Shown in pieces: positions 47,891 through 55,369 of a stretch of DNA of 64,000 bases. The stretch's first letter is position 1. Each line of letters opens with the position of its first letter. The notes below the pieces were generated by a model. That model was not told where the DNA came from, ran no database searches, and was given only the letters and a program-made list of their open reading frames with translations. The translations under genes and the position numbers were made by a program. The DNA is taken from positions 25,854,001-25,918,000 of the forward strand of contig OX485806.1 of NCBI GenBank assembly GCA_950295325.1. The letters run 5' to 3'. This stretch comes from Polytrichum commune. Lineage: Eukaryota; Streptophyta; Polytrichopsida; Polytrichales; Polytrichaceae.

Positions 47891-48037
47891 CATAATATTA
47901 TTCATATCCAAAACAGTGTTCTGTGGGACTGACAGTATTTCGTAGAATATTCTCCACATTCATATCAAATGTGGAGAATATTCCGTGAAATATTGTCAGT
48001 CCCACATAACATTGTTATGAATATGAATAATGTTATG
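47891..48037. repeat. 147-bp near-perfect palindrome with 70-bp arms
   Basis: Arms 47891-47960 and 47968-48037 pair with few mismatches around a short CATATCA loop. The innermost 20 bp (ATTCTCCACATT/AATGTGGAGAAT) and the GTGGGACTGACAG/TTGTCAGTCCCAC block are intact. The shape suits a small MITE or a long miRNA-like precursor; no conserved miRNA is recognised. Confidence 0.8.
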
Positions 48038-48488
48038 AATTGGGACGACGACCTATAATGATTTCTAAACTCACAGGGACGATTACATGCAATTCTGATA
48101 TATATGTACAACTCTGAAAGGCACCATAGATTCACTTCAAGAACTCAAAATATACCTCATATATAGATTTGAATTCTGGCAAGCTCGATGTTACATGACC
48201 ACATGCTAGCAAACTCAAGTTGCTTCCAAACTTGATGATGGATGCAAATTATCTGAGTCAGGGACACCTAATAAAGTTTAATTCGACCACGGATACCAGA
48301 ATTGCCTTTGCAAATATGTTTTTTTTTGGTTCATTCAATGTAGGGAAGATTAGTATGTGTCTGTGCCGTCCCAACCCTTTCTACACATGCATGTGACAGA
48401 TCATTTTAATGTGATTCTCCTACCTTCCCATAGGAGTGAGGAACCATAAAGAATGTCATTACCACCATCACCACGTTTTCATTATATA
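48038..48488. other. short intergenic stretch
   Basis: No gene recognised. It ends with the ATA target site (48486-48488) of the Harbinger element. Confidence 0.4.
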
Positions 48489-48601
48489 GGGGGGGGCCGC
48501 ACAGGGGGTTGGGTTGAAAAAAATGAGGGGTTTGGGTTGGAATTGAGTTTAACCGGTGGCCGCACAAGGAGAAAAATTTCAACCTAAAGAAAAATTAGGG
48601 C

Positions 48602-48665
48602 AAGTGGTCCCCCCCCAATCCTAAAGTTTCTCCAAGTGGTCCCCCCCAATCCTAAAGTTTCTCCA
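48602..48665 (+). repeat. 31-bp tandem duplication in the Harbinger subterminal region
   Basis: CAAGTGGTCCCCCCC followed by AATCCTAAAGTTTCTC occurs twice in tandem, with the C run differing by one base, just inside the left end of the element. Confidence 0.85.
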
Positions 48666-49149
48666 CCGTGGTCCCCACATCCGGTTGAAATTTTAACACT
48701 AGTTTGCTCAAATAAGCTCAACGGTGGAATTAGTACCGTTGAGCTTATTTGGCCAACTTGGGTTGAAATCTCAATCCACATTCAAGGATGTGAATCAAAC
48801 ATGAATACATTCATCCTCCCTATTTTGAGGTGTTTAAGGGGTTAAGGTTTCTTGGTAGACTTCACAAGTTTACACCTTTTGAGTTTAACCCCTAAAGGCC
48901 CAAGGGGTTTGGGAAAACCCTTGTGTTATAAATTATGCATTTCATGACAGTTATGAAATTTTGCTCAGATTAGTATGAAGACCTTAATGCCTAAATTAGA
49001 TCAATGCGGTCAAATTTCTTAAAATAAACATCATTTATTTTATAGTAAATTAAAGAGACTACAAATTTGAAAATCAATAGAAAATACACTTTATTATAAA
49101 ATCATTTCTTGTACAATCATTTGGCCTTTCACTATTTGATTTATGTATT

Positions 49150-50740
49150 TTAGGCTCTGCCTGAAAATTTGATGTAGTCCATGATGCTCTCTCTATTCAA
49201 TCGAGCACTATACATATGCGTTTCCATGGTCTCCACTACTTCTCCACCTAAGAGGACGCCTTCACTTTTAAGATCATCTGGAATGCCTAAATATGCTTTA
49301 ATTTCAATTAAAGTCTTATCTTTCCTCGCAATCAAAAAATTGTGAAGGATTGCACAACACTTACTTACGTCCACTAGAAAATCAACTTTCAATTTAGATT
49401 TGCAATTTAACTCTTGGAACCTTTCTTTTAAAATTCCAAACGCTCGTTCTACAACGACACGTGTTTTACTATGATGTGTATTGAACATCACATAATCAGT
49501 AGTAAGCCGCATACCCGGATTTGGCTTAAAAGGTATTATAAGCCATGTTGTTAAAGGATAAGCTTTATCTGCAATTATATAGGGATGTATGTTTACGTGC
49601 GGATTGAAAACATTGGGTGGGCAATTAAGTCCACTTAATTGTCCATTTATAGCCATATTGTAAAATTCAGTTTGCCGAAAGTGAGAAGAATCATGATTTC
49701 GTCCTGGAAGTCCAACATGAAGATAAGTGAAGCAACAATTTGCATCCACTACAGCTTGCATGATAATACTATAATGTCCTTTTCTGTTTTTATAATCTTC
49801 TCGACGTGATTTATGAGGAGGTCCTTGAATTGATATATGTGTTCCATCCAAAGCTCCAACACAATTAGGCAATCCTTGCAAAGCCTCAAATTCCTTAGCA
49901 GTTTCTTGAAGTGTTTGTAAATTTGGCCAATCCACCATGTATGATAGATTATGGTTCACAGCTTCAACGAACTCCCTCAAAATTGAATGAACAGTTGATC
50001 GACCTATTCCAAATATGTGGGATACCAACTTCACTCTTGCTCCACTCATTAATTTAAACAATGCGCATGCAACCCTCTTCTCCACACTAATTGGCAATCT
50101 CCAGTTTGTATTTTGTTTCTGCAAACTTCTTCTAAGCATATTGCACAAATTTGTGAAGGTTTTTTTTTTTACAATGAAGCAAATCAAAAAATAAATCAGG
50201 AGGATAGTCGTTCATCAAGAAATTGGTGAACCATATCATACATCTTGGCTTAACATACCAACGATTTGCCCGCTCAAGCAATGGCTTCTTCATAAGAAAA
50301 AGTTGTTGCAAATATTCCATGACTATATGGTTGAAGGTGTCTTCTTGGTCACAGTCGATGTAAAAATTGTCCATTAGTAAGTTTTCATCATTATAATGAT
50401 GAAGAAATAGTTCACGTGATGAAGTTTGTTCTATAATTTGTGGTAAAACTTCATTCATTTGAAGCAAAAATGTAGAACACGAAGCGCTTATTAATGTCAG
50501 AGGTATCTTCATTTCTTTTTTTTGTTGAGGAGACATATTCAATATAGGTACTGGAACATGGTACGGCTTATCCAAAGGGTTGAACTCTGTTGTTTGAACT
50601 GTACGTGAAACACTTGGTGTTTCATCTTCAATTTCCATGTCATCTACCATACGATGAACTCCATGTCTTTCGAACTCTTCATTGTAAATTTGTATTGGAG
50701 TTGGTTCATATTCTTTTGGTGGACTATTTGCATTCCTCAA
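49150..50740 (-). CDS. Harbinger DDE transposase (HARBI1-like), one frameshift
   Basis: This nuclease would excise and insert the element together with the Myb-like partner. The N-terminal part (50740-50171) includes RANRWYVKPRCMIWFTNFL and YPPDLFFDLLHC. The frame then slips in an 11-A run (50160-50170). The rest, read in the 345-codon frame ending at 49150, has LQKQNTNWRLPISVEKRVAC, a helix-turn-helix-like VSHIFGIGRSTVHSILREF and the DDE nuclease. Catalytic residues in that frame are Asp 114 (GALDGTH), Asp 207 (IADKAYP) and Glu 248 (VVVERAFGILKERF). Removing one A would join the two parts. The lesion may be a real mutation or a homopolymer sequencing error. The likely ATG is that of MVDDMEIEDE, but the frame is open upstream to a TGA at 50768-50770 that ends the protease gene, raising the possibility of a former fusion. 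Confidence 0.88.
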
Positions 50741-50767
50741 TGTGTCAATAGTATCAAGTATAATTCT

Positions 50768-52772
50768 TCACTTCATAACTATATCAGATGCTGAGAACCA
50801 ATGCCGTGAAAACTGCAACCAATAATGACTATGTTATGAAATATAAAATTACAAAAAACATTGTACCGTGTATACATTACAGATTAACTTGTACATGTTG
50901 CTATGCATTTTTATAAATTTTATGGAGAATGTAAAAAAGTTATATAGAGCGCTTACAAAATATGAATATCCATCATTTAAGCTGAATTTCAATGGAGCTG
51001 ATTGGAAAAAAAGTTCTGCAAAATGAAGTACATACAGTCCGCAATCATACCCATTTATTTGTTGAGGCACCTGGAAACATTATAATTAAGTAAGTTCATT
51101 GGTACCACATTGCAAAGTAGAAATACATTGTAATTTAAGGTTTTTCAAAGATTTCACAGTGTTTTAATCACAACGCACACTTACTTACCTCAACTGTAAT
51201 AAATGGTATACTAGTGATTGCATTCGCCAAACGATCACTTGGCAAGCAATTCATTTCTTCTATATAGTGTTGAATATACCTACAATAAAAAAAAACTTGT
51301 TGATTCCTTGGTACTTACAAATCAATGTTGAGCAAAAAAATGGTTAAGGGGTAATTTGTGGTAAGCAAAAACAAAAAGGGAAGATAACCCAAATCAATGG
51401 TCAATAAAAAAATACTTAAGGTAATCCAAATCTTTTTTAAAAAGTCAGATTCAAAGTTGCGTACCTTCGCATTGGACCTTCTATGCCTGATGTATGCATT
51501 GTTTGTAAAGAATTTAGATGTAAAATGCAAGGGACGCCACCTTCATTGTATTCTGCACATTTTTTAAAACAACATCTTATTTATATAGAATATTAATGGA
51601 ATATTAATGGAATATACTTTAGTTGTATGATATTACTTATGTACATCAAATTTTTAAAAAAATGATTATGTAACGTACGTGTTGGATTTGCAATGACACC
51701 AATATTACATATAATGATAAGGCTCCAATGCTCCCTGAAATAGAAACAATGACAAATTTAGTAAAAAGTGAAAACCTTAAAAACTTATAAATATAATTTA
51801 AAAACATGTATAAATAAGTTATTACAAATGGAAGAAACAATGAAATATTAAACTCTTTAATAAGAGTACCTTATTTTGTGATGGAATTGCAATTCTTTAA
51901 TTTGATACCAAAAACAAAAAGAAAGTTATAAAATGTACCTTTGATTAATTGGGATGAAAATATATTGTTTTTCTAACAAATTCACTGTACGAGTCCACCT
52001 ATGTAGCGATGAATACGACTCCACACTATTTGAGACTTGGACAATTTTTGGGAAAAAGAAGCATGAGAAAATATATATTTTCCTTTTTGTTGTTGAAGGC
52101 AACTTGCTTTGCATATACCTGCGATGTTTCATACGATTTTAGAAATTAATCAAGAAAACGGTAGAACCATGAGGCTCTGTCCTTTGCTAGGAAAGACTAC
52201 AATTATAGATGTCCACTTTGCTCATGCGAATCCATGGCTATTCACTATACCAAACCTTTCTTGGATTTTGTGCACCTTCTATTCAAATACGGGTCAAGGA
52301 TTGAAGTTACTCATTTATCACCCAAAAGTTTTAAAATAAATAATCAAGAACTGCCGAAATAACTATAGTTAACTAGATTTCTTTCAATGCATTTTGGGGA
52401 GCACTTGTGTATATATATATAAAAACTATAGTTAACATCCACATTACTTAAAGTGGACCAAAAATAACAAGAACAAGTAACGTCTAGGTGTGAACACAAA
52501 GTGGTTAGGAAATTTGCTCTTGAAACGAAGAAGTTGATGCATAGTCTCTTTCCTACAGACAGAGCCAATAATTAATTAAAAAAAAACAATATACTTGCAT
52601 GGAGCTAATGGAAGAAGATTAGTGGTACTTACTGCATATAAAAATCAATGATACAGTCATTGAGATATATTTCTGGTTGCAATCTATGAACATCATCTTG
52701 TTTAATTTCAATCTCAAAATTGGTATCTGGTGACTTATAAAATAGTAAAGTTGAATTTGATGTTGAAGCCAT
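50768..52772 (-). CDS. Ulp1/SENP-like cysteine protease (peptidase C48), seven exons
   Basis: Exons on the minus strand: 52772-52633, 52118-51939, 51734-51679, 51552-51465, 51279-51189, 51070-50957 and 50812-50768. All are bounded by GT-AG, all phases join, and they give 237 codons and a stop. The family removes SUMO-type modifiers from proteins. Conserved landmarks in order: HRLQPEIYLNDCIIDFYMQ, RWTRTVNLLEKQYIFIPIN, HWSLIIIC (catalytic His 109), PCILHLNSL (Asn 139 where the catalytic Asp is expected), VPQQINGYDCGLYVLHFAEL (Gln 189, Cys 195) and a final WF motif. The ATG at 52772 is in good context (ATGGC). The TGA at 50768-50770 truncates the last helix; the same frame continues RIILDTIDTL, as expected of the family's C-terminus, into the transposase frame. 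It lies wholly within the Harbinger element. The activity of an Asn variant is unknown. Confidence 0.85.
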
Positions 52773-53208
52773 AGTTGATCAGTGTATGTTATGAAGTCTA
52801 CTTCATAACAAGGGTGAATCTCTATGTCTATAAAATACATATACAAATTACAATTTTTAAAGGCCCTCTTTACCATATATAATGTATGTCTTTCTTTTGC
52901 TTTAAAGTAAAAGCTTTATGTGTGAAAAATAGGAAAGTCTTATAATTATAAGTGCATTTTGAGTTTCATAAAATATATATACATGATGGCATTACATTTT
53001 TAGAGAAGTGAATGATAACTATCAGACTTTACGTTTTATTTTATTTTATTTTAAAAAGAAAAAGATAACTATCATAAAGGTATAAATATATCCATAAACA
53101 TATTCAATGTATATGTTATTAAACCAATTTGAAAGTGTTATTTTGAGTTCTTAATTTTTTTTTATATTTGAAAACTCCAATTTTTCCATAACCTGTCAAT
53201 TAGTAAAC
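52773..53208. promoter_or_regulatory. bidirectional promoter of the Harbinger element
   Basis: This 436-bp AT-rich gap separates the divergent start codons of the protease and Myb-like genes. GGTATAAATATATCC at 53079-53093 is a TATA candidate for the plus strand, about 120 bp before that ATG. TGTATATATATTTTA (minus strand, about 52970-52984) is one for the protease, about 200 bp before its ATG. Both are sequence matches only. Confidence 0.45.
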
Positions 53209-54186
53209 ATGGATAAAGAACCAATAAGTCCTAAAGGTGAAGTACATGTGGATTTAGGGGGGGCCGAAGATACAGAAGAGCATGAGGTAAAAGGACCAAA
53301 ACAACTTGAAGAAAAAGGAAAAAGATTTGTATGGAATAAACAACAAACTATGGTGTTGATCCAATGCAAAATCCGTGAAGAGAAAGGAGAAAAGGTGGAA
53401 ACTGGAGATAGTAAATTCAGGAGTCGGAATGAAAAATGGGGTGAAATTATAAGTCACATGAAATCACTTCCAATGTTTATGGGAATTGATGTCACCGTAG
53501 ACAGACTAGTTAACAAATGGGACAATTTACAGAAGCAGTACAACAAGTTCAAAAGATATATGGATCACACATCAAGGGGTGGAGATCCGTGGCAATTAAA
53601 TCCGAAAGATTTGAAAAAAGTTGGCCTTCCTTCAGGTTTTACCAAAGATATGTATGATGAAATGAATGAATGGTACGGTAAATCAGGAAAGTTTCAAGAG
53701 AATGTTCATACGCTGGATACGTTGAAGAAGCCTGAACATGTTGATGTTGGAGAAATTTCAAGGCGTGAAAGAAATGAGGACAATGACAAGTCAAAATTAA
53801 AAGGGAAAATTGAGACTATAGATGTTGGAGAAGGTATTGAAAGGTCTAAATTGAAGCAAAAAGTTGAAACTACAAATATTGGAGAAGCTTCAAGTGGACG
53901 CAAAAAGAAGATTGATCCAGAAGTAGAAGAGACTTTGTATCTTTTAAAACAAAGAGATCAAACACTAAGTGAAAATCTTGAAGCTCAAGCAAGATTTCGA
54001 GACACAATGCTTGCAAATCAAAATGAGAGACACCAAAGTTTCATGGATTTGGAGAGAAGACGTTTGGACATTGAAGAGCAAAGGAACAATATAATGGCGA
54101 CACAAGTTCAAAGTCTTTTAGCTATAGCAAATAATTTGGCGACGTCTTTGGGTGTAATAGTAGATAGTTTGAAAGAAAAACCTTAA
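53209..54186 (+). CDS. Harbinger Myb/SANT-like DNA-binding protein
   Basis: A single intact 325-codon frame. Residues about 38-155 form a Myb/SANT (trihelix-like) domain: RFVWNKQQTMVLIQCK, KWGEIISHM and VDRLVNKWDNLQKQYNKFKR, followed by GDPWQLNPKDLKKVGLPSGF. Residues about 180-240 are Lys/Glu-rich with three related segments (VDVGEISRRERN, IDVGEGIERSKLKQK, TNIGEASSGRKKK). The C-terminal 85 residues are helical and probably coiled-coil (RRRLDIEEQRNN). In active PIF/Harbinger elements the Myb-like protein binds the termini and helps carry the transposase to the nucleus. It starts divergently from the protease-transposase unit and ends about 370 bp before the right terminus. No disabling change is seen. 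Confidence 0.9.
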   Translation: MDKEPISPKGEVHVDLGGAEDTEEHEVKGPKQLEEKGKRFVWNKQQTMVLIQCKIREEKGEKVETGDSKFRSRNEKWGEIISHMKSLPMFMGIDVTVDRLVNKWDNLQKQYNKFKRYMDHTSRGGDPWQLNPKDLKKVGLPSGFTKDMYDEMNEWYGKSGKFQENVHTLDTLKKPEHVDVGEISRRERNEDNDKSKLKGKIETIDVGEGIERSKLKQKVETTNIGEASSGRKKKIDPEVEETLYLLKQRDQTLSENLEAQARFRDTMLANQNERHQSFMDLERRRLDIEEQRNNIMATQVQSLLAIANNLATSLGVIVDSLKEKP

Positions 54187-54558
54187 ACAAATTAGAATTG
54201 GCAAAGGGATTGCAAGTATTGCACGACCAATTTATATTTACTTTCGATAGCATTTTTTTGCACAATATCATGTACTATATGCACACACTAATTTATATTT
54301 CCTTTGGATAGTTTGTTGCCAAGTGAATGAGGTCAATTCTTCATCCATTCTTTGTATACTCAACCAATGGCCCTATGCGGCTCATGGTTGAGTTTTTGTT
54401 TCAACCGGGTTCAAATCTCAATCCACATTCAATCCAAACTCAACCCAACTCAACCACAAGCATTTGGGGGGCCCACAAAAAGTTTGGTTGAACTTTCCTA
54501 AACTAGTTGGAAATTCAACCCAACCCAACCCAACCCAACCCCCTGTGCGGCCCCCCCC

Positions 54559-55369
54559 ATAGTAGATAAGGGTGTGTTGTCATATATAGGCATTGAGCAT
54601 AACTAACAGAACATTAATGTCACCTTGGATATACCACCTCCTCCAAGTAGGTAATAGTGTATTTTAGGGAGTCCATATATAGCTAAACTTTCATCTTTCC
54701 ACCTTCATTAGGGTGCATATTTATTTGAGAAGTTGAAATTGAACTGCAGTTCATCAATTAGAATCTAATAATATGGATGGCACAATTTTGCTTCAGTAGG
54801 GGTCGTACGTGCCAACTTAGTAACTCCCACCTTCTCAAATCCAGGCCAACCTACGAACCGCCTCCTCCAAGTTAAAACCTCCTCCTTCTAAAAACCGGTC
54901 ATCAAAATATTTTGAGACTAGCACTTGTAGGTTAGAGATTCTTTTGTGGGTGCATGAAGGTCTAGCTACCTATGTCCATGGCCCTCCGCATTCTAGCGGA
55001 CCGCTAAAATGTGATTGTATGGCAACTTGTGCTTAACTACATGTGAACACCTCTGACCCATTATTTTCTAGAATCTAGTGGGCGATGACCTACATGAAAA
55101 CTCACCCTAAATCACCCTAAGTAACCCACCCCCGGGATTACGATTTCTTCTTCTCCAAGCAAAGTCACATTTTTTGAAGCAATTTTCAATATTGACATCT
55201 TCAACACTTGTCAAATGCCATTTTGGCTTTCAAAAAAGTTTTTTTTTTCCCCCCCCCCCCCCCCCCCAGGCACTTCACAAAAATGTGCTCTGCAAAGTTT
55301 TCACCAGTCACAGTGAAGGCCTCTCCAAAACTTGTTTGACACAAAATACAATGGTTGGAATTTGCAAAT
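54559..55369. other. intergenic between mobile elements
   Basis: It contains a T-run plus C-run homopolymer block at about 55238-55268 that may be prone to sequence error. No gene recognised. Confidence 0.35.

Follow-up and report, generated by a model that had tools for sequence, protein, structure and literature searches.

A ULP2/SENP6-7-like C48 domain as the probable N-terminal part of a PIF/Harbinger-type transposase in Polytrichum commune

ULP/SUMO-protease domains recur across unrelated transposons. ULP domains are reported from MULEs, from grapevine CACTA elements and from rice proteins alongside Tnp2 (PMC2528002), from the C-terminus of Ginger1 transposases, where the domain is of the Ulp1 type (PMC2836005), and from Cryptons (PMC3212892). 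A 2026 review of plant capture gives MULE cases (PMC13317346); the word Harbinger is absent from it and the single "PIF" is a transcription factor. A survey of the PHIS superfamily (PMC4482050) contains no mention of Ulp1, protease or peptidase. Among the matches listed in the open-access literature, no ULP-bearing PIF/Harbinger element was found, and we make no claim of priority for such an element. Here we describe a Harbinger-type family, by all appearances dead, in which a ULP2 domain seems to be fused to the transposase, ULP-carrying DNA transposons being already known in other superfamilies.

The window analyzed is a stretch of 64,000 nucleotides of Polytrichum commune, C4:25854001-25918000 in the 407.8-Mb assembly. 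It contains a PIF/Harbinger-type element of 6,070 bp (window 48489-54558), whose features are collected in Table 1. An earlier note, made from the letters of the window, had described a complete Ulp1/SENP-type protease gene lying between perfect terminal inverted repeats (TIRs) with an ATA target duplication, beside a DDE transposase and a Myb-like gene. The outline of this description was borne out: the TIRs are 28 bp long and perfect, ATA flanks both ends of the window copy, and a DDE transposase and a Myb-like gene were recovered within the same element from their Pfam matches (Table 1).

Table 1. Features of the element in window coordinates.
Feature	Position	Strand	Remarks
Left target-site duplication, ATA	48486..48488	.	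3-bp length backed by empty sites of the C2 copy
Left terminal inverted repeat, 28 bp	48489..48516	+	Starts with eight G
DDE transposase domain	49150..50158	-	Pfam DDE_Tnp_4, E 5.2e-34
Linker and N-terminal part of transposase	50159..50767	-	Frame continuous with C48 exon 7 in the other four copies
TGA codon	50768..50770	-	CGA (Arg) in the other four copies
C48 exon 7	50768..50812	-	Continues into transposase in other copies
C48 exon 6	50957..51070	-	Catalytic Gln and Cys (QQINGYDCG)
C48 exon 5	51189..51279	-	
C48 exon 4	51465..51552	-	Asn at expected triad Asp (ILHLNSL)
C48 exon 3	51679..51734	-	Catalytic His (REHWSL)
C48 exon 2	51939..52118	-	
C48 exon 1	52633..52772	-	With ATG
Myb/SANT-like ORF	53206..54186	+	Pfam Myb_DNA-bind_4, E 1.8e-7, above cut-off
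Right terminal inverted repeat, 28 bp	54531..54558	-	
Right target-site duplication, ATA	54559..54561	.	

DNA and protein searches of the genome identified four further copies, at C7:39.86 Mb, C2:53.89 Mb, C5:14.03 Mb and C1:8.55 Mb (hereafter the C7, C2, C5 and C1 copies), whose aligned stretches of at least 280 bases showed 95.6 to 99.3% identity with the element in the window. The family numbers at least five, the transposase search having scored the best 115 of 1,218 candidates; among these, the next transposases were ∼45% identical. The layout of protease, transposase and Myb gene, which the note had proposed to seek in other copies, was shared in its first two parts by all five copies, each carrying the C48 exons together with the DDE part, and in its third by four, the Myb region being lost from the C1 copy along with the Myb-side end and intact in the window and C2 copies. 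The C5 copy is without the right terminal repeat. The proposal that a Harbinger-type lineage captured a SUMO-protease-like gene is thus upheld in all five copies, among which neither an element without the protease nor a nested protease with borders of its own was seen. Two candidates were rejected on the same ground, namely that the C48-DDE unit is common to all five copies and that the alignments have no borders around C48: a nested insertion of C48, and a host gene near which a transposon had landed.

Linkage between the two domains was also counted by proximity, using 114 DDE places (115 rows, of which the one for the second piece of the C1 copy was dropped) together with 56 places for C48. 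Six DDE-C48 pairs lay no more than 15 kb apart: the five copies and one further pair 6.6 kb apart (C4:17.04 Mb). The C48 sequence of this sixth pair (L026) clusters in the tree with L025 and L029, both of which adjoin pogo-type transposases, and the pair was therefore not counted as part of the Harbinger family.

Target duplications were 3 bp in each of the three copies that retain both ends (ATA, AAT and ATA). This length is supported by empty sites of the C2 copy, whose joined flanks aligned without a gap across the junction to two other loci (L043, 70%; L044, 77%); the same search for the window copy gave weak matches of 71-73% that extended 7-8 bases beyond the junction. In PMC4482050 the PIF/Harbinger target duplication is given as TWA, from which all three duplications differ, and we accordingly name the element PIF/Harbinger-type, inside the wider PHIS superfamily. 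The G-runs at the element ends differ in length, and no alternative border yielding TWA was seen. The sister families L033 and L034, taken as controls for the target duplication, had no clear TIRs. A genome search with the TIR pattern (up to two mismatches) returned eight sites: seven were ends of copies already known and the eighth was a fragment of a right end on C3, so that no miniature family sharing the TIRs within that mismatch limit was at hand to supply more target duplications.

Several smaller observations were made at and around the element ends. A lone right end of 109 bp, 94% identical, was found at C3:35.289 Mb (L031 6219-6327), with the rest of the element unmatched in the 9.9 kb around it. 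Near the left end of the element is a 90-bp imperfect palindrome (window 48685-48774), 79% identical to its own reverse complement and also matched in the C7, C5 and C2 copies. Another imperfect palindrome, of 147 bp (window 47891-48037; 85% self reverse-complement identity over 148 aligned columns), lies to the left of the element and is possibly a miniature transposon.

The transposase can be assigned to the Harbinger type from its Pfam profiles. At E ≤0.1 its ORF matched DDE_Tnp_4, Plant_tran (E 1.7e-13), DDE_Tnp_1 and HTH_Tnp_4 (25.1 bits, just under the curated cut-off of 27), and none of the MULE, MuDR or Tnp2 models. The linker and N-terminal part of the transposase matched no Pfam family; within it, a one-base homopolymer length difference, which could be an assembly error, breaks the transposase frame in the window copy. 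The Myb/SANT ORF lies head-to-head (divergent) relative to the C48-transposase unit. This arrangement differs from that of the related families L033 (C5:42.45 Mb) and L034 (C2:55.06 Mb), in which the Myb gene is tail-to-tail with the transposase.

The seven minus-strand exons of the C48 feature (window 52772-50768) were rebuilt as they had been described, with all six introns GT-AG, consistent phases (2,2,1,2,0,0) and an open joined frame of 237 codons. Identity as a C48 peptidase was corroborated by the match of the 237-aa product to Pfam Peptidase_C48 (E 2.2e-28, profile positions 2-192 of 217) and by its best solved relatives among PDB chains, SENP7 (about 1e-24) and then SENP2 (about 3e-21), both far beyond chance. 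Because SENP7 is the best solved relative, the element protease is, judged from its sequence, ULP2/SENP6-7-like and not Ulp1 proper. The Ulp1-like class originally assigned was set aside on this match and on the introns shared with the host gene L021 (see below).

At what we take to be the positions of the C48 catalytic triad, His is kept in all five copies, Cys in four (exon 6 of the C2 copy is four bases short), and Asp is replaced by Asn in all five; Gln is present. The element thus departs from the full His-Asp-Cys triad plus Gln of Peptidase C48, and the earlier statement that all main motifs are encoded stands for the His, Gln and Cys of the window copy but not for the triad Asp. With Asn at the catalytic Asp in every copy, protease activity must be considered uncertain. 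Papain and other cysteine proteases carry Asn at the equivalent position, so some activity of the C48 domain would be possible, and this outcome and lowered cleavage with SUMO binding retained would be of equal standing. Elsewhere in the genome, Asn occupies the triad Asp site in L025, L026, L029 and L039, and Asp is found there in the host gene L021 and its paralogues L022, L023, L027, L035, L036 and L037.

The first intron of the C48 feature differs between copies. The window, C7 and C2 copies contain an insert of ∼415 bp (window 52152-52568) that the C5 and C1 copies lack; by eye it has GGCTCTGTC-like inverted ends, and in the C7 copy another ∼730 bp lie at this place. The insert is probably a nested small transposon.

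Our preferred interpretation, to which we give a probability of about two in three, is that the C48 feature belongs to a fused PIF/Harbinger-type transposase, of which it forms the N-terminal part, and that the domain was captured from a host ULP2/SPF-type gene. A PIF/Harbinger-type element would have taken up genomic DNA, introns included, that encodes the catalytic domain of such a SENP6/7-like host protease, and the captured domain would have become joined in frame upstream of the DDE transposase, with the divergent Myb/SANT gene completing the element. The product would be a single protein, whose ULP2 domain may have given the transpososome a means of binding SUMO or of deSUMOylation; there the domain could have removed SUMO from the Myb partner, the transposase, or chromatin and repair proteins at the element ends, or engaged SUMO on them. 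The Asp-to-Asn change suggests weakened cleavage or chiefly a SUMO-docking role, and the arrangement as a whole suggests that the element once had to handle host SUMO control. Instead of the fusion protein, the element may have made a ULP mRNA of its own, or translation may have begun internally, at a Met within the linker.

The host gene closest to the element C48 is L021 (C5:11.148 Mb). All six introns agree with it in phase; in the alignment five coincide to the column and the sixth, next to a gap, is displaced by one column. This match shows that the domain was captured as genomic DNA and not via mRNA. The two proteins are identical at 104 of 231 aligned residues (45%). Estimates of dN and dS were 0.50 and 2.0 (NG86) or 0.45 and 1.26 (LWL85), for a dN/dS of about 0.25 and 0.36, respectively; as the ratio spans both branches, and perhaps time before capture, it is not by itself proof of selection inside the element. 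In the C48 tree the element sits on a long branch with an unsettled branch order around it, so that L021 is the closest gene while the exact donor is not fixed; the joining of the element to L021 had support of 71/43 in a smaller tree (7 of 12 rows). From the SENP7 similarity we infer that the host ULP2/SPF-type genes correspond to class III of PMC6117577. At C4:0.70 Mb (L024 2927-3249, minus strand) the final two catalytic exons of L021 recur in nearly identical form, with weak matches to the other L021 exons in the 7 kb around; the locus is probably a partial duplicate of that gene.

The fused gene is broken in each of the five copies by one or more lesions (a stop, a frameshift or the loss of a splice site), and no intact fused ORF was found among them. 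Single-copy changes between copies numbered 17 nonsynonymous, 4 synonymous and 4 stop-related in C48, and 42, 18 and 5, respectively, in the DDE part, while the two C48 changes common to two copies were both nonsynonymous; all of these counts may be inflated by codons behind frameshifts. The pattern fits neutral decay of the copies after insertion, and, judged on five copies, the family looks extinct in the assembly. Neutral decay would also be the fate of a functionless passenger, that is, a fragment of a host ULP2 gene picked up by chance transduplication as in Pack-type elements, a process that likewise yields intron-containing captures and would be at ease with the changed catalytic Asp. 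We consider this reading unlikely, since the domain is complete and, in the state common to the copies, has its splice sites and an open frame, since it is joined in frame to the transposase, and since the 45% identity and a dN/dS of about 0.25-0.36 imply constraint, part of which perhaps acted in the host before capture.

The in-frame junction bears directly on how many genes the element contains. The protease had been described as a complete gene, additional to and independent of the other two, and the window copy alone would suggest as much. Its terminal TGA is, however, CGA in all four other copies, and in these (C7, C2, C5 and C1) C48 exon 7 reads straight on into the transposase ORF in the same frame. 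With the stop private to the window copy and the frame open in four of five copies, the "complete protease gene" is best read as the truncated N-terminus of a fusion, its resemblance to a separate gene being the product of a nonsense change; C48 and transposase are probably joined end to end as a fused transposase (C48-HTH-DDE). In seven of the eight host ULP2-class exon 7 sequences compared, a Lys-Arg pair is kept at the position of the stop codon and is followed by an Ile/Leu-rich stretch. The residues past the window stop fit this host pattern, ranking first of 84 windows in a 94-residue linker (shuffle p 0.003); with the Arg excluded p is 0.02, the signal being short. Read in its own minus-strand frame the linker is free of stops, and each of the other five frames has one to nine; the chance of an open linker of 41 codons is ∼5% by background stop frequency, the four copies not being mutually independent.

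A three-gene element, with a separate ULP gene closing at 50768 and, downstream of it, a transposase that has its own start, would draw on the TGA that closes the C48 ORF of the window copy and on the Met codons that follow in the transposase frame. Such an arrangement nevertheless appears distinctly improbable, as the stop is absent and the frame continuous in all four other copies and as the stop codon falls within the Lys-Arg pair that most of the host sequences keep.

Pogo-type transposases with C48 domains were also encountered in this genome. One of them (L049 6807-8825, minus strand) matched DDE_1 (1.4e-23) and HTH_Tnp_Tc5 (8.5e-5) and belongs to a family of three copies (L047, L048 and L049), each with a same-strand C48 alongside. 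Read by eye, a GT-AG intron splits the last motif of the L049 transposase and the frame continues into a C-terminal C48; a GT-AG intron similarly gives read-through into C48 in L032 (2313-5243, minus strand), a diverged relative whose transposase is 43% identical. The two L049-family copies read at the triad Asp (L025/L049 and L029/L048) have Asn. That the Harbinger C48 came from another transposon family, such as these pogo-type TPase-C48 elements, and not from a host gene seems very unlikely to us: such units are present in the same genome and a common origin of the pogo-type and Harbinger C48 was not rejected by a tree test (p-AU 0.32), yet the C48 of L049 is without introns 1 and 3, which the element and L021 share, an argument that holds against the family of L049 only, as L032 keeps intron 1 (by eye).

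If the C48 feature is indeed part of a captured and fused transposase, the fusion places a SUMO-protease domain on the transposase itself. The PIF/Harbinger superfamily reportedly has two known proteins and a yeast transposition assay, so the need of a transposase to handle SUMO would be directly testable. With its shared introns, the element would illustrate clearly how genomic DNA can be captured and its product then fused to another protein. More tentatively, and in our view improbably, the joining of ULP2 domains to transposases could be a repeated answer to a host SUMO barrier, reached within this single genome seemingly separately with an N-terminal C48 in Harbinger and a C-terminal one in pogo, the Asp-to-Asn change of the Harbinger family and of one pogo family then making the protease a SUMO-chain-docking module that steers or stabilizes the transpososome.

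With PIF/Harbinger elements of the PHIS superfamily, the element shares a DDE_Tnp_4 transposase, a Myb/SANT second ORF, TIRs and a 3-bp target duplication; it differs in the ULP2-type C48 N-terminal to the transposase and in duplications other than TWA. With the host ULP2/SPF-type SUMO proteases it shares the C48 domain, whose six introns have their counterparts in L021; here the element differs in having Asn for Asp, an exon 2 of 180 rather than 207 bases, and a transposase joined to the domain. CACTA-ULP elements of grapevine and rice also combine ULP with a transposase, in proteins with Tnp2 and ULP1 domains, but that transposase is of CACTA/Tnp2 type and thus of another superfamily (PMC2528002). 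Kaonashi (KI) and other ULP-bearing MULEs are likewise plant DNA transposons multiplying a captured ULP domain (PMC2528002, PMC13317346); theirs is a MudrA transposase, however, and in KI-MULEs ULP is reversed relative to mudrA. HarbingerS (mentioned in PMC12730594) is a Harbinger lineage with an acquired regulatory enzyme gene, which in that case encodes a SET methyltransferase and occurs in the oomycete Phytophthora. Finally, Ginger1 carries a Ulp1 domain inside its transposase, as the element described here appears to do with its ULP2-type domain, but Ginger1 is an animal element (the Ulp1 cases being from Hydra) with a Gypsy-integrase-like transposase and a C-terminal Ulp1 (PMC2836005).
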